A program made the position numbers and the translations under genes. The notes under the pieces were generated by a model. It was not told where the DNA came from. It was given only the letters and a program-made list of their open reading frames with translations, and ran no database searches. Shown here piece by piece: positions 3,711-10,058 of a stretch of 10,058 nucleotides of DNA. Source of the stretch: an uncultured Chloroflexaceae bacterium (GTDB lineage: Bacteria > Chloroflexota > Chloroflexia > Chloroflexales > Chloroflexaceae); contig CAKZQX010000334.1 of the NCBI GenBank assembly GCA_937141995.1, positions 1-10,058 of the forward strand, in the 5' to 3' direction. Position 1 is the stretch's first letter. Each line of letters opens with the position of its first letter.

Positions 3711-3754
3711 GTGCAGCAAACCCGGTCGTCATACGACGAGCGGGTTTGCTGCAC
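3711..3754. repeat. 14-bp perfect inverted repeat with nested hairpin
   Basis: GTGCAGCAAACCCG (3711-3724) pairs perfectly with CGGGTTTGCTGCAC (3741-3754). The 16-nt interior itself folds: GTCGT (3725-3729) with ACGAC (3733-3737) around CAT. There is no T-run on either side, so it is unlikely to be a terminator. It ends 11 nt before the miniature element that starts at 3766 and may belong to the same repeat landscape. Confidence 0.7.
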
Positions 3755-3765
3755 TGTATTGCCTG

Positions 3766-3983
3766 ACAGGAGTTACGCGGTGTGTGTTCAAACGAACCGT
3801 TTACTCTCGATAACGGCGTATTTCGCCTGCGGCAGCATGGTACTTTTCTGCCTTTTTCCGGAACATTTGGCTCGGAGAGCCAAATGTTCCGGAAAAAGAA
3901 TGTCCCATTCCACCCTGCCGGAGGCGAATCGGGCCATGTGTCCAGGCAGACGCCTGGTTTGGAACCGACCGCGTAACTCCTGT
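3766..3983 (-). mobile_element. Miniature inverted-repeat element, copy 1 (218 bp)
   Basis: ACAGGAGTTACGCGGT (3766-3781) and its exact reverse complement ACCGCGTAACTCCTGT (3968-3983) bound a 218-bp unit. Inside, also in inverted arrangement, are TTTCGCCTGCGGCAGC (3821-3836) and, read on the minus strand, TTCGCCTCCGGCAGGGTGGA. At the centre is a 22-bp perfect hairpin; a smaller one, CCAGGC-AGAC-GCCTGG, is at 3942-3957. It contains no credible gene. Two related copies occur at 9131-9280 and 9950-10058; orientation is assigned by matching those. CCTGA stands at 3762-3766 and again at 3985-3989, a possible but unproven target duplication. The build fits a non-autonomous MITE or foldback element. 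It lies just downstream of prpE and upstream of the acs promoter. Confidence 0.75.
3852..3898. repeat. Central 22-bp perfect hairpin of element copy 1
   Basis: The arm at 3852-3873 (starts CTTTTTCCGGAACATT, ends GGCTC) is exactly complementary to 3877-3898, leaving a three-base loop, GGA. The T-run comes before the stem and the A-run after it on both strands. That is the reverse of an intrinsic terminator, so transcription termination is not the obvious purpose. Confidence 0.85.
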
Positions 3984-4003
3984 ACCTGAATTGTCAGCCA
4001 GAC

Positions 4004-5902
4004 CTAGAACTGACCCTTCAGCATATCGGCCGCCTCACGCACCATATCCACGGTGGCATCGTCTTCAATGGTGCTCAAGTCGCCAATATTGTCACCCTGA
4101 TAGACGGCCCGGATCACGCGGCGCATAATCTTGCCGCTGCGCGTCTTGGGCAGGCTAGAGACAAAGTGAATGCCCTTGGGCGAGGCAATCGGGCCAATGC
4201 GGTCACGCACCAGTTGGCGCATCTCCTCGGCCACCCGGTCCTCGTCCGCCGGAGCGATGTGGTTCTTCAGCACCGCTATGATCAGCACCCCTTCGCCGCG
4301 CAGTTCGTCCTTCACGCCGACAACGCCGACCTCGGCCACACCCGGATGCGACGAGACGACTTCTTCGATCTCGCGGGTACCCAGGCGATGCCCTGAAACG
4401 TTCAGCACTTCATCGGCGCGGCCCAGCATCCAGAAATAGCCGTCCTTATCCTCAATGGCATAGTCGCCGGTGAGGTAGAGTTGCTTGTCCTGGAACTGGC
4501 CCCAGTAGTCCTTCAGGTAACGCTTGTCGTCGTTCCAGAGCGTCAGGAGCATCCCCGGTGCCAGTGGCCCCCGTTCAATCAAGAAGCCCTTCTGCCCCTT
4601 CTCCAGCGAGTTACCATCCGGGTCAACTACCTCCAGGCGATGCCCGACGGCGGGCTTGGTAGGCGACCCCGGCTTGATCGGCAGCATCTCCAGCCCGACC
4701 GAGTTAGCCAGCATTGACCAGCCGCTCTCCGTCTGCCAGTAGTGGTCAATCGGCGGCGTACCCAGCACCTCCTTGCCCCACTGATAGGATGGCTCATCCA
4801 GCGGTTCCCCGGCGGTGAAGAAGTGCCGCAGCGAAGAGAGATCGCGGTCCTTGATCCAGCTATCGGGGAACTTCTTAAGCGCGCGCAAAGCGGTTGGCGC
4901 AGTGAAGACGCAGGTTACACCATACTTCTCAATAATGCGCCACCAGATGCCCGGATCGGGATAGTCCGGCGTGCCTTCGTAAACCACCGTCGGCAACCCT
5001 TTGAGCAGCGGCCCATAGACAATATAGCTGTGACCGACCACCCAGCCAATATCCGATGTAGACCAGTAGACATCGCCCTCGCTCACATCATAGATCTGGC
5101 TCATCGAGGCGTGCAGGGCCACCATATAGCCGCCCGTATCACGCACCACGCCCTTGGGCTTGCCGGTGGTGCCCGACGTATAGAGAATGTACGATGGATC
5201 GGTACTCTGCAGGCGCGTCGGCTCAACATGCAGCTCACCGCGCTGCGCCAGTTGCTCCGTCCAGTCCAGGTCACGCCCGCGTTTCATCGGGCAGGAACCC
5301 AGCCCGCGGTTTAACACCAGCACATCGCGTACACTGTCCGTCGTGGCCGCATCAAGCGAGGCATCAACCATCTCTTTGAGCGGAACAACATTGCCCTTGC
5401 GGGAACCGGCATCGGCGGTCAGCACCGCCACCGGCTCGGCATCGTCGATGCGGCTTGCCAGCGAAGAGACACTAAAGCCGCCAAATACCACCGAGTGAAT
5501 CGCGCCCAGGCGCACACAGGCCAGCATCCCGATAATTGCTTCCGGGACCATCGGCATGTAGATCAGCACCCGGTCGCCCTTGCGCACACCCAGGTTTTTG
5601 AGCACACCAGCCAGCTTATTGACCTCACGGTAGAGTTCAAAATACGTCAGCGTGCGGGTTTTTCCGACCTCGGTGCTCTCCCAAATAATTGCGGCCTGAC
5701 CTCGTTTGGAACCAAACGCATGCCGATCAACCGCGTTATAGCAGATGTTGGTCTCGCCGCCAACAAACCAGCGGTAGAATGGCGCATTGGAGTCGTCCAG
5801 TACCTTATCCCACTTGCGGTACCAGTGCAACTCCTCGGCAAGCTCACCCCAGAACGAAGTCGGATCCTCGATGGAACGGCGATAGACCTCATCGTAGCTC
5901 AT
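4004..5902 (-). CDS. prpE: Propionyl-CoA synthetase-like acyl-CoA ligase (632 aa)
   Basis: AMP-forming short-chain acyl-CoA ligase, most like PrpE, converting propionate, ATP and CoA to propionyl-CoA, AMP and pyrophosphate in the cytosol. Motifs in order: nucleotide loop YTSGTTGKPKG (241-251) followed by the PrpE-style RDTGGYMVAL, DIGWVVGHSYIVYGPLL (284-300), DHYWQTESGW (386-395), DKDGYFWMLGR (485-495), and PKTRSGK with catalytic Lys591. The 632-aa length suits PrpE. The frame is open up to an ATG at 6013, but I choose ATG 5902 because AGAGGAGGTT lies five bases upstream and alignment with the family begins there (MSYDEVYRRS). It is paralogous to acs, on the same strand, 581 nt upstream, with a miniature element between them, so a shared operon is doubtful. 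Specificity is inferred from motifs; a broad short-chain ligase is the alternative. Confidence 0.9.
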   Translation of the reverse strand: MSYDEVYRRSIEDPTSFWGELAEELHWYRKWDKVLDDSNAPFYRWFVGGETNICYNAVDRHAFGSKRGQAAIIWESTEVGKTRTLTYFELYREVNKLAGVLKNLGVRKGDRVLIYMPMVPEAIIGMLACVRLGAIHSVVFGGFSVSSLASRIDDAEPVAVLTADAGSRKGNVVPLKEMVDASLDAATTDSVRDVLVLNRGLGSCPMKRGRDLDWTEQLAQRGELHVEPTRLQSTDPSYILYTSGTTGKPKGVVRDTGGYMVALHASMSQIYDVSEGDVYWSTSDIGWVVGHSYIVYGPLLKGLPTVVYEGTPDYPDPGIWWRIIEKYGVTCVFTAPTALRALKKFPDSWIKDRDLSSLRHFFTAGEPLDEPSYQWGKEVLGTPPIDHYWQTESGWSMLANSVGLEMLPIKPGSPTKPAVGHRLEVVDPDGNSLEKGQKGFLIERGPLAPGMLLTLWNDDKRYLKDYWGQFQDKQLYLTGDYAIEDKDGYFWMLGRADEVLNVSGHRLGTREIEEVVSSHPGVAEVGVVGVKDELRGEGVLIIAVLKNHIAPADEDRVAEEMRQLVRDRIGPIASPKGIHFVSSLPKTRSGKIMRRVIRAVYQGDNIGDLSTIEDDATVDMVREAADMLKGQF

Positions 5903-6085
5903 CACTGAACCTCCTCTAAAGCGTTCTTCCTCGAACCTCTTCATAGAGGCAAAAAGAGGGAATACCAGATTCTGAAAGACGTACAACACGTCCGATAGTG
6001 CCGTAAAGCACAACCAGACGGCGGGCCGGGTTGAAACGAATATTGTGTTGACTAGTACAGGTTTTGAGGATTTGGGCTCAATGAG

Positions 6086-6113
6086 AGTTTATCACAAATT
6101 TTGACTTTGGCAA
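6086..6113 (-). promoter_or_regulatory. Possible promoter of prpE
   Basis: On the minus strand TTGCCA (complement of 6108-6113, five of six consensus bases) and TAAACT (complement of 6086-6091, four of six) are 16 bases apart in an AT-rich patch. That would give a leader of about 180 nt before ATG 5902. Nothing better is seen between 5903 and 6214. The call is weak. Confidence 0.35.
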
Positions 6114-6214
6114 ATTTTTGAAACAGGTGGAGTGGCGATGACGGGGATGCGACGGCGCGACGAATGGTTGGTGTATCGGGAGCAAGATCCTCCGAACCGT
6201 CTCGCCTCTTCGCT

Positions 6215-7331
6215 TCATCCCACAAGCCCCAGGTCCAGGTAGACCGCCGAGGTCAGCGCGTGGAAGCGCTGGTCGTGCTGCTCATTGCCCGGCGTGCCGT
6301 TGACGACAATAGCGACAACCAGATCATACGCCGGATCGGCGAAGGCGATGGAGGATTGATACCCGCCGTGGCCGAAGGTGCGCGGGGAGCTATGTTCGCC
6401 GTAACCGTAGGGCACAAGTGCGCTACCGTACTGCTTTGAGTCCCGCATGAAACCCAACCCCCAGTCCAGTGTATGCCCCAGCGTTTCGTCAACCATGCCG
6501 ACGCGGTGACGCGCGGTCAATGCCTCGACGGTCTGGGGGGCAAGCAGGCGGGTACCGGCGCGCTGCCCGCGTGCCAGCAGCATCTCGTAGAAGTACCCCA
6601 ACTCGCGGATGGGGCCCCGTCCACCACCACCCGGCCGGCAGGCGACGCAGTCCTCTTCCGTGTCCCAGAAGGGGTCGAGTTTTGACTCCGGATTGCCGGC
6701 GGTATTGTGCATAAAGCCGATGCGATTGCCATAGGCGCGGAACTGCTCCGGCGGCATCCCTACCCCAGGAGTCATGCATGCTGAGTGGGATAAAAATCTC
6801 CTCGCGGACATAGCGCTCGAAGGGGCGACCGTCGATGCGCCGGATTAACTCACCCAGGATAAACCAGGCCGAGGAGACATGATAGCCTCCCCGCCGCCCT
6901 GGTACCCATCCCGGCTCGAGTGCCGCCGCGCAAATGCCGGCAATTACCACCTCCCAGGCGACAGGCCGCCAGCGCGCCTCAACAAAACGAAACCCGGCGG
7001 TGTGGGTCAACAGGTGGCGCAGGGTGACGGCTTCTTTGCCGCCGGCAGCAAACTCAGGGATGTACCTGCTCACCCGGTCATCCAGATCAAGCTTCCCCTG
7101 CTCCCAGAGTTGCCCGATAGCCACCGCAGCCACCGGCTTCACCGAGGAGAACCAGAGCATAATCGTCTCGCTGGTCATCGGCAGGCCGTAGCGTGCCTCA
7201 CCGATGCCGCAGTCGGCCACGGGGGTGCCCGCCAGCGAGACATAGAGCTGCGCCCCCAGATGCAGGTTCTGGTCAATCCCCTGCGTGATCAGGGCAACGG
7301 TGCCGGGGAGGGTGGTTTGCGGCGATTGCAT
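6215..7331 (-). pseudogene. Serine hydrolase, class C beta-lactamase family, frameshifted
   Basis: Member of the large serine beta-lactamase-like hydrolase/esterase family (COG1680 type). Read through the lesion it is 371 aa. The nucleophile motif is SSVK (Ser62, Lys65); the second motif is Tyr150 in GGYHVSSAWFILGELI; the third, KTG-equivalent, motif is HGG (321-323) in TFGHGGYQSSIAFADP. The frame is broken after HDSW (about residue 189): the minus strand reads TCCTGGGGTAGGGATG, and dropping one G from the four-G run (6763-6766) gives W-V-G-M-P-P-E-Q-F and continues cleanly to the HGG motif and the TGA stop. So both halves are well conserved and one extra base separates them. I prefer ATG 7331 (GAGAAAG nearby) to the upstream GTG at 7349. 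There is no clear signal peptide. It could be a recent pseudogene or a sequencing error. Substrate unknown. Confidence 0.85.
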
Positions 7332-7415
7332 AACGGTTCGCTTTCTCACTCAGATAGTACCGGCGTTATTGTACCGCATTGGCGCGGGGATGATGGAGGG
7401 CAGCCGGGATGATAT

Positions 7416-7431
7416 GGTTGCACATGCAACC
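7416..7431. promoter_or_regulatory. Candidate operator palindrome between divergent genes
   Basis: GGTTGCA (7416-7422) and TGCAACC (7425-7431) form a perfect seven-base inverted repeat with a two-base centre. It lies in the 167-nt gap between the divergent hydrolase and DUF2207 genes, where a dimeric repressor or activator could control both. No regulator gene is nearby and no strong promoter hexamers frame it, so the role is a guess. Confidence 0.35.
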
Positions 7432-7498
7432 TATCGGTGCGAAGCTGCGTAGTGAAGAACACACGGAGGAAAGAATTTCCTAAAGGAAGGGGGATGTT

Positions 7499-8587
7499 AT
7501 GTCAGTATCCCAGGTGTTACGACGCAGTGTCACCGTGGGTGAGCTGTTCATTGCTGCACTGCTAACCAGCCATCCGGCCCTGGCCCAGGAGCGATCTTTC
7601 ATCTATGAACGGATCGATGTCACCGTTGATGTTCCGACGAATGGTGTGCTTACCGTCACCGAGACCATGACACTCGACTATCGGGGCGGTCCATTCACCG
7701 CTGCCTCCCGCGACATTGCCCTTCAACAACTTGACGACATCCGCGATATTACCCTGTACGAAGGTGAGCAGGTTTATACCACGGCACCGGCAAGTAACGT
7801 TGCCGGCACTTATACGGTCGAGCGTCGGCAGGATGCCGTCAATGTCCAGTGATTCTATCCACCCACCAGTGATATGACGCGCACCTTCACACTCCGCTAC
7901 CAGGTTGACGGTGCCGTACGGGTCGGCAATGAAACCGATCAACTCTGGTGGGTCGCTATTTTCCCGGAGCGTTCGATTGATGTTCAGCGGAGTAGTGTCA
8001 CCGTGCGCCTGCCAGAGGCAGCGCAACTCCAACCCGATGATGTCACCCTGCCGGCGGCCACAGGGCAGGTGAATATTGTGCAGAATGTCGTCACAGTTGT
8101 GCGCGATACGCCCCTCCCACCCGGGATGTCGCTCGATGTGCGAGTCGCGTTCCCACCTGATCTGGTACAGGCCGAGGCTCCGATGTGGCAAACCGAGGCG
8201 TGGGCGCAACCCCGTCAACCTGCTGTGACACCAGCAACTACTGGGGCGGTTCCCGCATCCTGGTTTATCGGGTCAATAGTGGTTATTCTGGGTGTTGTTC
8301 TCATGCTTTTTCTCTATCTTATGCGTAATGTACAGGAGTACCAATATCCGCGCAGCAAGGAAGATAACGCGGATGAGAATGACGTGGAGCGTGCATATCA
8401 ACGCCGTCTCCGGGAGATGGAACGTGCCGGTCGTGACTGGCAAGCGCGCCGGCCGCGCAGTTCCTCCCGCAGCACTGGTGCCTATTTTCATAGCGGTAGT
8501 GGGAGTTCTACTGGTAGCGACAGTGGCAGCTTTGGGGGTAGCAGTAGTGATAGCGGCAGTGGTGGCGGTGGTGGTGGTGCCTGGTAA
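7499..8587 (+). pseudogene. DUF2207-type exported membrane protein with in-frame TGA
   Basis: The frame codes for 362 positions but is interrupted by TGA at 7850-7852 (position 118). Upstream part: signal peptide (hydrophobic 14-27, ending ...SHPALAQ), then a beta-rich extracellular domain (ERIDVTVDVPTNGVLTVTE). After the stop, in the same frame, come FYPPTSDMTRTFTLRY and GNETDQLWWVAIFPER, one membrane helix at about 254-275 (SWFIGSIVVILGVVLMLFLY), a charged juxtamembrane segment and a Ser/Gly-rich tail ending GGGGGGAW. This order fits DUF2207 proteins, where a Trp normally precedes the YFPPT-like stretch, so TGA most simply replaces TGG. AAGGAAGGGGG stands just before ATG 7499. Reinitiation at ATG 7874 has no ribosome binding site and would lack a signal peptide. 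Shorter than many DUF2207 proteins. Function of the family is not known to me. Confidence 0.8.
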
Positions 8588-8646
8588 GTTTTTTCTTCTC
8601 TTTTGGTACGTCAGTAACCCATAGCAAACATAGCCGAAAGATCTGT

Positions 8647-8652
8647 TATATT
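8647..8652 (+). promoter_or_regulatory. Possible extended -10 promoter for the 8764 gene
   Basis: TGTTATATT (8644-8652) gives TATATT preceded by a TG dinucleotide at extended -10 spacing. No -35 hexamer is visible. Transcription would start near 8660, about 100 nt upstream of ATG 8764, and the leader would include the inverted repeat at 8657-8703. Confidence 0.4.
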
Positions 8653-8656
8653 TAGC

Positions 8657-8703
8657 GGCGTGAAGGGTCTGACATGTTCTTCCGTAGAGAGATTCTTCAC
8701 GCC
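8657..8703. repeat. Nine-base inverted repeat in the leader of the 8764 gene
   Basis: GGCGTGAAG (8657-8665) and CTTCACGCC (8695-8703) are perfect inverted copies with a 29-nt loop. It lies between the DUF2207 stop and the small membrane protein. No T-run follows on either strand. It could be a leader structure or an operator; I cannot tell which. Confidence 0.4.
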
Positions 8704-8763
8704 TACTGCAAAGCATGTATGACGCCTATTCCGTTATGAGCCGGATTTCAGGAGAAGCACACA

Positions 8764-9117
8764 ATGAGTCAATACTACGAAGGAATACCGCTGGAAAAGA
8801 AGCATTCCAGATTGGGGATTGCTGCGTTGATCATCGGCATACTGGTGGGTATGCTTTTGTGTATCCTGATCGTTTTTGCCGGTGTTATCGAAGTTTCGCA
8901 ACCGGGGAGTCTGACGGGAGATTCTGTCGGAGCCGTATTACTGGGATTGCTGGTCATCGGTGGGCTCCTGCTAAACCTGATCGGAATTGGCCTGGGCATC
9001 GGTGGCCTGTTTCAGCAGCAGCGTAAGAAGCTATTTCCCATTCTCGGCATATCGATAAACAGCGTTATTCTCCTGGGCGTGTGCGTGCTTATAGCATGGG
9101 GAAGTGTTCAACCGTAG
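8764..9117 (+). CDS. Small three-helix membrane protein (117 aa)
   Basis: I do not recognise a named family with confidence. Three hydrophobic segments are clear: about 17-42 (LGIAALIIGILVGMLLCILI), 55-82 (VGAVLLGLLVIGGLLLNLIG) and 90-113 (LFPILGISINSVILLGVCVL). The first twelve residues are polar and carry KK at 12-13; the loop QQQRKK (84-89) is positively charged and so probably cytoplasmic. The glycine-rich helices and the RKKLFPILGI turn resemble small DUF4190-like membrane proteins seen in many bacteria. The start is supported by AGGAGA at 8750-8755, eight bases before the ATG. It stands alone: the next gene is convergent, and an element copy begins 13 nt after its stop. No enzymatic motif is seen. 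Confidence 0.8.
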   Translation: MSQYYEGIPLEKKHSRLGIAALIIGILVGMLLCILIVFAGVIEVSQPGSLTGDSVGAVLLGLLVIGGLLLNLIGIGLGIGGLFQQQRKKLFPILGISINSVILLGVCVLIAWGSVQP

Positions 9118-9130
9118 CGTCAACAAACCC

Positions 9131-9280
9131 GGGTTACGCGGTCCCTATCCCGAAAGGGGATCTCGCCTCCGCCAGGGCGGAACGAACCATCTTTTGTGAC
9201 CAAGATAAAAGGACCAGGCTGCCGCAGACAAAATTCAGTTTCGCCTGCGGCAGCCTGGTTTGAATGTCCACCGCGCAAGT
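9131..9280 (+). mobile_element. Miniature inverted-repeat element, copy 2 (diverged)
   Basis: Starts GGGTTACGCGGTCC and ends ACCGCGCAAGT, an imperfect version of the copy 1 termini. 9159-9195 matches 9977-10013 of copy 3 at 32 of 37 bases, covering CTCCGCCAGGGCGGAA and AACCATCTTTT. TTTCGCCTGCGGCAGC (9239-9254) repeats copy 1 exactly. The long central hairpin is missing; instead ACCAGGCTGCCGCAG (9213-9227) pairs perfectly with 9245-9259 over a 17-nt loop. No gene lies in it. It sits between convergent genes and could help separate their transcripts. Confidence 0.7.
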
Positions 9281-9435
9281 CGTGTCACACTTGCGTAGAA
9301 CGTGGGTCACAAGCATGTGGGCGTAGTCACCACGAGAGGTTACATCATGCTTTTCAGATGGAGTTGCCACCGCCGCGAAGACGGTGCTGCCAACATTGTT
9401 TACGCCTTTGCGCGTCCGTGTATACCTGTGCCAAT
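9281..9435. other. Gene-free remainder of the convergent intergenic gap
   Basis: Together with element copy 2 this makes a gap of 318 nt between the 8764 gene and the 9436 gene. I see only a weak hairpin, CACCG with CGGTG near 9367-9385, without a following T-run on either strand. No convincing ORF, promoter or RNA gene is seen. Confidence 0.4.
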
Positions 9436-9876
9436 TTACCCGGTCCGGCCCAGGGTTGCCCCCGGCACCACTGCCGGCTCATCTATCCGTACTCCAACAT
9501 ACTGTGCCGGGCCAAAGGCCAGCAGGAGCATAAATATCGGGCTCAGGAAGATCAACCCCAGGGTAAAGCCGATGCCCTTGCCGAAGGCTCGCGACAGGTC
9601 GTGCATCAGCATCAGCGAAATAACCACATTTACGACCGGAACAAACCAGAGGAGCAACCACCAGCCTGGGCGTCCGACAATCTTGAGGAACACCACGATG
9701 TTGTAGAAGGGGATAAGCGCAGCCCATCCCGGTTGACCGGCTTTGGCGTAAATTTTCCACGACGCGGCCAGCGCCACGAAAAGCAGGGCAAAACCAAACA
9801 GCAACGACAGAACTGCTATCACCATGTCGCCGGATGAGCCACCGGCTTGCTGGGCCATTGCGAGAGACCAGATCAT
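9436..9876 (-). CDS. DUF5684-type integral membrane protein (146 aa)
   Basis: A small membrane protein whose core matches the DUF5684 pattern: KAGQPGWAALIPFYNIVVFL (45-64), KIVGRPGWWLLLWFVPVVNV (65-84), then LSRAFGKGIGFTLGLIFLSP (94-113) and a final FGPAQYVG. Hydrophobic segments lie at about 17-38, 52-65, 71-92 and 101-121. The paired PGW motifs next to helices and the FGKG turn are the family's typical marks. A Pro/Gly-containing tail (AVVPGATLGRTG) closes the protein. ATG 9876 is supported by AAGGAGA, about five bases upstream. In other bacteria this domain occurs alone or near signal peptidase genes, but no such neighbour is present here, and its biochemical role is not known to me. It is convergent with the 8764 gene and has an element copy upstream. 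Confidence 0.85.
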   Translation of the reverse strand: MIWSLAMAQQAGGSSGDMVIAVLSLLFGFALLFVALAASWKIYAKAGQPGWAALIPFYNIVVFLKIVGRPGWWLLLWFVPVVNVVISLMLMHDLSRAFGKGIGFTLGLIFLSPIFMLLLAFGPAQYVGVRIDEPAVVPGATLGRTG

Positions 9877-9949
9877 GTGCTTCTCCTTGTGTGTTGAATG
9901 CTTCAGGTCGGTTCGCTTACTCGGTCGATCTAATTGTCTGATTGCCAGT

Positions 9950-10058
9950 AGTTACGCGGTCGTTGACCCGACAAGCGATTTCGTCTCCGGCAGGGCGGAA
10001 GAAACCATCTTTTTTCACAAAAAAATTTGCACATAGTGCAAATTTTTTTGTGAAAAAA
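9950..10058 (+). mobile_element. Miniature inverted-repeat element, copy 3 (cut by window end)
   Basis: Begins AGTTACGCGGTC, then CCCGACAAGCGATTTCG, then CTCCGGCAGGGCGGAA and AACCATCTTTT, in the same order as copy 2. It then enters a perfect hairpin: 10010-10032 (TTTTTTCAC, an A-rich middle, TTTGCAC) pairs with 10036-10058 over a three-base loop, ATA. The 23-bp stem finishes on the last base of the window, so the right half of the element is not seen. It lies about 73 nt upstream of the DUF5684 gene's start, in its promoter region. Confidence 0.72.

Follow-up and report, generated by a model that had tools for sequence, protein, structure and literature searches.

The stretch of DNA analysed here (the window) comprises 10,058 nucleotides from the genome of an uncultured Chloroflexaceae bacterium (contig CAKZQX010000334.1 of assembly GCA_937141995.1), and it carries three copies of a short inverted-repeat element that contains no gene, including none for a transposase, and that is built around a central hairpin. 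Here we show that these copies belong to a genome-wide family with target duplications, frequent head-to-tail arrays and a hairpin whose two arms change together. We hold, with about even confidence, that this is a family of non-autonomous DNA transposons (miniature inverted-repeat transposable elements, MITEs) marked by stepwise insertion, array growth and upkeep of the hairpin at the level of DNA.

An earlier interpretation of the window from its letters alone (the sequence-only reading) had named three repeat copies, all of which are present. Their limits, first placed at 3766-3983, 9131-9280 and 9950-10058, are reset by the terminal repeat to 3767-3982, 9128-9284 and 9946-10058. The identity reported between copies 2 and 3 (32 of 37 bases, 9159-9195 against 9977-10013) is reproduced, and TTTCGCCTGCGGCAGC is indeed common to copies 1 and 2. 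The terminal sequence said to be shared holds for copy 1, with its perfect 15-bp terminal repeats, and does not hold for copy 2, which is without AGTTACGCGGT. The features of the three copies are as follows.

3760-3766: left target duplication of copy 1, TGCCTGA, matching 3983-3989 at 6 of 7 bases
3767-3982, minus strand: copy 1, a complete element of 216 bp with perfect 15-bp terminal repeats and its internal blocks on the minus strand
3767-3781, plus strand: terminal inverted repeat of copy 1, CAGGAGTTACGCGGT
3821-3843, minus strand: internal block 2 of copy 1, reading GTACCATGCTGCCGCAGGCGAAA on the minus strand (by sequence)
3852-3898: central hairpin of copy 1, with a perfect 22-bp stem and a 3-base loop
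3911-3927, minus strand: internal block 1 of copy 1, reading TCGCCTCCGGCAGGGTG on the minus strand (by sequence), which pairs with the copy 3 block
3968-3982, minus strand: second terminal inverted repeat of copy 1
3983-3989: right target duplication of copy 1, TACCTGA, matching 3760-3766 at 6 of 7 bases
9128-9284, plus strand: copy 2, a degenerate element of 157 bp with a rearranged centre and the ends CCCGGGTTACGCGGT and ACCGCGCAAGTCGTG
9213-9259: central inverted pair of copy 2 (9213-9233 with 9239-9259, 90% complementary), replacing the usual central hairpin
9939-9945: left target half of copy 3, TGATTGC (by sequence), its partner lying past the contig end
9946-10058, plus strand: left part of copy 3, which the contig end cuts inside the hairpin
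9946-9960, plus strand: terminal repeat of copy 3, CAGTAGTTACGCGGT
10010-10058: central hairpin of copy 3, with 23-bp arms and a loop of 3

As single-stranded DNA, copy 1 folds at -71.5 kcal/mol (z = -12.2). No recognisable target duplication was found at the ends of copy 2.

The source genome (G000) is a fragmented metagenome-assembled genome (MAG) of 5.42 Mb in 1122 contigs, 86% complete; in comparisons, one genome per species was used. The guess that three neighbouring copies betray many more is borne out genome-wide: the exact 11-mer AGTTACGCGGT occurs 439 times in G000 (220 and 219 by strand) against 7 (4 and 3) for a reversed control, which rules out a chance repeat. With two ends per element, this implies at least about 216 copies, so the family is far from being limited to the three in the window; it has hundreds of members with sharp common boundaries. 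The internal block CCATGCTGCCGCAGGC occurs 307 times, its control not at all. Anatomy was studied in 60 whole G000 contigs (375 kb, chosen by motif or by a match to copy 2) together with 29 shorter loci. Two-ended copies measure 193-198 or 214-219 bp in 59 of 64 cases and begin and end with the 15-bp repeat CAGGAGTTACGCGGT, inverted at the far end, each followed inward by a variable arm; between the arms stands the central hairpin, framed by block 1 (CGCCTCCGGCAGGGCGGAAG) on the side of the first arm and by block 2 (GTACCATGCTGCCGCAGGCGAA) on that of the second. The outer positions of the terminal repeat vary at both ends. Most copies are intergenic: only 7 of 57 lie mostly inside an open reading frame (ORF) of at least 150 codons' worth of protein (150 aa), against an ORF coverage of 74.5% (ORFs called mechanically).

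Direct repeats (matching at 6 or more of 7 bases, or at 7 or more of 8) stand just outside the ends of 40 of 64 copies, compared with 5.1% of random pairings of left and right flanks; array neighbours have duplications in common, so that these 40 copies are not all independent. The 26 duplications of 7 bp follow TNANTNA (T in 26, A in 26, T in 22 and A in 26 at positions 1, 3, 5 and 7), and the 14 of 8 bp follow TNANNTNA (T in 13, A in 14, T in 12 and A in 14). In arrays, copies follow one another head to tail with a single target duplication between them. Junctions in which 15-bp ends stand 4-10 bases apart number 52 (37 of 7 bases, 13 of 8, one of 9 and one of 10); a second scan, limited to spacings of 7 or 8 bases, gave 50 head-to-tail junctions (37 + 13). 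The spacer within arrays differs from the two outer flanks by 1.16 and 0.91 mismatches of 7, against 2.9 after shuffling (32 each).

Three neighbouring copies of one array (L099) have quite different hairpins, which argues that arrays are not simple duplications. In a few G000 arrays (L077, L068) the internal spacer reads as the outer target duplication in reverse complement, which points to recombination within arrays. Among array neighbours in G000 (L099, L101, L118, L120) the right-hand tip variants are alike beyond shuffling (1.73 against 2.27 mismatches of 7, 26 pairs, p = 0.002); the left-hand tips show no such excess of common variants. Left arms agree within 10% in 27 pairs of copies, and in 2 of these the right arms do so too, where chance gives 0.2. 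An absence of linkage between left and right arms, as judged by a Mantel test, was overturned by a threshold test (11 close pairs against 1.1 expected at 15%). Compared as sequences, the arms show some linkage but are also frequently exchanged; L092 and L023, for instance, have an identical right arm, yet their stem pairs differ at 12 of 20.

Insertion sequences (ISs) with matching ends and an IS701-like transposase, the kind of full-length transposon that the sequence-only reading had proposed to look for, are present in two relatives. In G081, of the same order, a 1274-bp IS bears CAGGACTTACGCGGT at both ends around a DDE transposase; this end variant also occurs at the ends of G000 copies, to which the IS variant matches at 15 of 15 bases. 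In G014, of the same family of bacteria, CAGGACTTACGCGGT ends stand at seven contig tips. Opposite-end flanks on separate G014 contigs match as reverse complements and yield, for contigs that we infer to be paired, the 8-bp duplications TAAGGTTA and TGAGGTGA; for the remaining three tips no partner flank was found. TAAGGTTA is also the spacer of a G000 element array (L066). The partner IS resembles IS701-like members of the IS4 superfamily: it joins the same 15-bp end variant to 8-bp TNANNTNA duplications, and the G081 transposase matches Pfam DDE_5 (40.8, cut-off 27) and the IS701 models NF049921 and NF033540. It departs from the IS701 family in that the latter two scores stay under the curated cut-offs (125.8 of 250 and 97.9 of 150 bits). 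Classical IS701 makes a 4-bp target duplication, unlike the 8 bp of the G014 partner, taken from flanks paired across contigs.

Across the phylum, the partner transposase was detected in 1 of 400 genomes at E 1e-20, where the ends were not identified. A protein search of G000 with the G081 transposase gave a weak match only, with other ends, and no autonomous element adjoining the ends was recognised in the fetched loci. Two candidates were set aside: L204, the first IS701 candidate (ends TAGGACTTACGCAGT), has different ends and unmatched flanks and is no direct partner; L222, an IS701-type copy of G000 itself that lies beside an array, has the ends CTCACCTTACGC and an 8-bp duplication TAATATAA (by eye) that partly fits the target, making it a cousin at best. 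Several ISs, most of them reached through IS701-like proteins, have TTACGC at end positions 7-12 (L204, L209, L222, L225-L228, L230-L232, L245, L250, L251 and L262), in a search that itself required TTACGC; read by eye, the flanks of these ISs point to 5- to 8-bp duplications.

The claim of the sequence-only reading that the elements are mobile and of MITE type thus gains support from the hundreds of copies, their sharp common boundaries, the strict consensus of the target duplications and the ISs with matching ends in relatives. An immobile ancient repeat, spread and arranged by homologous recombination alone, would account for the mosaic copies (close right arms in 2 of 27 pairs with close left arms) and for the inverted spacers of some arrays; it is confronted with 7- or 8-bp duplications at 40 of 64 copies and with an IS that has matching ends and the same 8-bp target format, and we regard it as extremely improbable.

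The central hairpin was examined in copies selected for their two internal blocks, independently of pairing. Among 79 block pairs, 66 enclose a hairpin with a 3-base loop and 13 do not (by eye, 6 of chance DNA and 7 copies with a deletion or a shifted arm). In a separate scan (at least 15 perfect pairs, loop of 2-6), the loop was of 3 bases in 64 of 66 element hairpins (hand count). In 64 distinct stems of 20 pairs, Watson-Crick pairing accounts for 1258 of 1280 positions, whereas shuffling the 3' letters by column gave a mean of 872 and a maximum of 906 in 1000 shuffles. When copies are compared two at a time, stem positions differ on both sides in 30.9% and on one side in 2.9% of cases. Constant features of the stem are CAC-N3-GTG or CTC-N3-GAG at the tip and a T-run at the base. 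The outer loop bases are complementary in 8 of 64 copies against 19.8 expected, and this avoidance suggests that the loop of 3 is real.

When paired bases covary, this is by convention taken to prove that an RNA is functional. The strong covariation seen here would also suit a hairpin that acts as RNA, being transcribed and folded and, for example, stabilising or cutting messages, so that selection on the RNA pairs the changes; passages of a MITE review (PMC10969869) state that MITE transcripts form stable stem-loops. The 22 non-Watson-Crick pairs tell otherwise: they comprise TG in 8 cases, GT in 2, CA in 5, AC in 2 and others in 5, so that G-T, at 10, is no commoner than C-A, at 7 (p = 0.63), and both are rare. 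Since an RNA helix tolerates G-U and not C-A, these numbers give no sign of selection on RNA. Rfam returned no match in the window at the gathering score, and the copy 1 hairpin (3852-3898) offers no site of the Rho-independent terminator kind, a GC stem followed by a T-run. The ORFs around 39 placed copies are tandem in 20, convergent in 8 and divergent in 11 cases, compared with 112, 34 and 45 for all neighbouring ORF pairs; there is no visible orientation bias, which suggests neither a terminator nor a promoter role. An RNA function is, on these grounds, improbable. Near-perfect pairing with no excess of G-T speaks instead for a hairpin that is apparently kept matched at the DNA level, whether by arm-to-arm copying (template switching), by selection on mobile copies, or by both.

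The internal block was sought in 120 genomes, G000 included, and occurs in exact form in 14 of them: 307 times in G000, 103 in G072, 68 in G078, 10 in G055, 5 each in G053 and G001, 4 in G081, and once or twice in seven others, some of the low counts looking like chance or other repeats (e.g. L311, L325). G072 and G078, in which the element is amplified, belong to another family of the order. In fetched stretches of G072, 12 of 15 copies have the hairpin, 7 with a loop of 3, and 198 of 202 pairs are Watson-Crick; for G078 the figures are 19 of 20 copies, 18 with a loop of 3, and 342 of 348 pairs. Stems in these two genomes were chosen by score, which trims their ends in favour of pairing, and their sequences are unlike those of G000 stems. 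Thirty mixed loci have the hairpin at 15 of 36 block places, several of these being the same G072 and G078 copies, with 280 of 289 pairs Watson-Crick. An element copy in G081 has a perfect 37-bp stem (hand count) and a 7-bp duplication, and a single element with the same ends occurs in the MAG of an uncultured Roseiflexus, its GC-rich hairpin showing one mismatch (by eye). In G072 (loci L339-L358), 10 of 20 block places are no more than 200 bases away from where a contig stops; assemblies are probably interrupted by the repeat itself, and this may hide full-length partners.

Taken as a mobile family, the elements could have arisen and spread as follows. A DDE transposase of IS701-like type, encoded by an IS that shares the 15-bp ends, would cut the element out and insert it into TNANTNA or TNANNTNA targets, with duplication of their 7 or 8 bp, as the matching ends and the target format suggest. 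The duplicated target would be a good target again, and further copies could insert alongside, building the observed head-to-tail arrays, in which a single duplication separates neighbours. Left arms, right arms and hairpins would then be reassorted by recombination within arrays. During replication, one arm of the palindrome could be copied from the other by template switching, turning single mutations into the paired ones that we see, and selection on the stem of mobile copies probably contributes to the matching. A host function would be needed for no step. Between the two forces, we favour by a small margin arm-to-arm copying, with selection on the stem as the second.

Several observations weigh against this account. 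On the side of transposition, the two flanks of the G081 IS are unlike each other, and no IS with the ends of the element was found in the 86% complete G000, searched with one transposase Pfam family (PF01609, ends inspected at 5 of 7 matches) and two proteins. Nor was a clean empty site found, the orthologous spacer in G001, of the same genus, being without element ends and too diverged to align. On the side of arm copying, the bases beside the stem remain unpaired, and loops differ in 35 of 39 pairs of distinct copies that have at most one stem-pair difference; the mean loop difference per base is 0.62 in the 8 pairs whose stems are identical and about 0.70 in the others. If arms were copied neutrally, stem and loop should change at the same rate, so that the slower change of stems counts against such copying. 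Reverse-complement loops are not enriched among close pairs (at most 3 stem differences), at 15 of 261 against 12.2 expected (p = 0.23). Their number over all copy pairs, 94, exceeds the 54 expected with independent positions or 66 with the outer bases taken together (p = 0.001), which speaks for arm copying, but this excess may reflect no more than one loop preference acting on both strands, which, if it is the cause, would point to DNA rather than RNA. When the blocks are matched more loosely, 88 of 96 distinct copies keep the hairpin. Stem mismatches rise from 20 of 1520 pairs (1.3%) in copies with 0-5 block mismatches to 13 of 240 (5.4%) in those with 6-12 (rho 0.20, p = 0.06), and 4 of 80 and 4 of 16 copies, respectively, have lost their hairpin or have it shifted; this decay in worn-block copies fits selection on mobile copies, or slow decay.

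Other loop comparisons bear on descent. Identical loops number 92 over all copy pairs against 51 and 62 expected, and 31 of 261 in close pairs against 12.0; the loops retain some ancestry. An inverted loop would be specific to copying, and there is no more than a hint of it: L101 and L017, with flanks that are 4% different, have the loops TTC and GAA.

Much of this evidence would be met by a MITE whose hairpin is kept perfect by selection at each transposition, in that only copies with an intact hairpin are mobilised well, the extruded hairpin or stem helping the transposase or the replication fork. Such selection would suit the constant tip and T-run base, the stems changing more slowly than the loops, the greater mismatch of worn-block copies, the prevalence of loops of 3 in other genera with unrelated stem sequences, and the avoided complementarity of the outer two loop bases. 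Selection alone does not predict the general excess of reverse-complement loops, and among copies with at least one badly worn end 11 of 16 still have perfect stems (mismatched pairs 8 of 300, against 24 of 1320 with good ends), which fits upkeep in place. We assign this explanation an appreciable chance, lower than that of stepwise insertion combined with DNA-level upkeep.

The window holds further features beside the element. A separate 20-bp hairpin with a 4-base loop (3711-3754) adjoins copy 1 between two acetate/propionate-CoA ligase genes. At 1046-1350 lies another group of short inverted repeats, unrelated to the element and centred on GGAATCCCGGCTTTAGCCGGTT / AACCGGCTAAAGCCGGGACTCC (1052-1073, 1083-1104 and 1254-1275). 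The gene for a DUF2207 membrane protein (7499-8587) is split by an in-frame TGA at 7850-7852, the same Pfam model matching both halves, and two overlapping minus-strand ORFs at 6215-7349 look like one frameshifted gene, which we take to be serine hydrolase or beta-lactamase-like.

Known systems resemble the G000 element in part. Bacterial MITEs such as Nezha, NEMIS, RUP and ERIC (names from PMC3733652) are likewise short and gene-free, with terminal inverted repeats, a target duplication, many intergenic copies and a matching IS in relatives; unlike them, the G000 element has a central matched stem that varies freely in sequence between copies and forms frequent head-to-tail arrays with one common duplication. 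A word search of the MITE review PMC10969869 met with none of tandem, hairpin, compensatory, IS701 or Chloroflex, and among the papers listed in literature searches no title or abstract opening names the family. REP/BIME sequences are also extragenic palindromes of high copy number; REP measure 20-40 bp according to PMC3733652, whereas the G000 element measures about 195-217 bp and has target duplications. Yeast mitochondrial GC clusters and Allomyces double-hairpin elements are mobile hairpins with loops more variable than stems, according to sections of PMC4478555, in whose discussion of them a cited title refers to tandem arrays; the mobility of double hairpins is also mentioned in part of PMC7218506. 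They differ as 42-base elements of an organelle, and the likeness is one of working only. Template-switch (quasipalindrome) mutation homogenises arms and inverts spacers (extracts of PMC8604942) and is one proposed origin of the compensatory changes seen in RNA genes (extracts of PMC8794818), so that arm homogenisation with paired changes is common to both; it differs in being a mutation process with no element, and for the G000 element it would be read back from present-day copies.

The covarying hairpin and the arrays with a common target duplication are features beyond those first described. To judge by the arrays, the element seems to insert again at the target duplication that it has itself made. 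The near-perfect covariation lacks the G-U stages typical of RNA, and its cause seems to lie in DNA; the G000 copies therefore form a large natural data set for asking how often compensatory changes are due to a copying process and how often to selection acting on the hairpin of a mobile DNA. A bolder proposal, which we consider doubtful, is that the central palindrome is an active DNA device that extrudes in replication, is recopied frequently enough for its arms to change in step, and is needed for mobility or for control of copy number. If true, template switching would have left in this family a natural record across a whole genome, and one that mimics the covariation by which functional RNAs are recognised.

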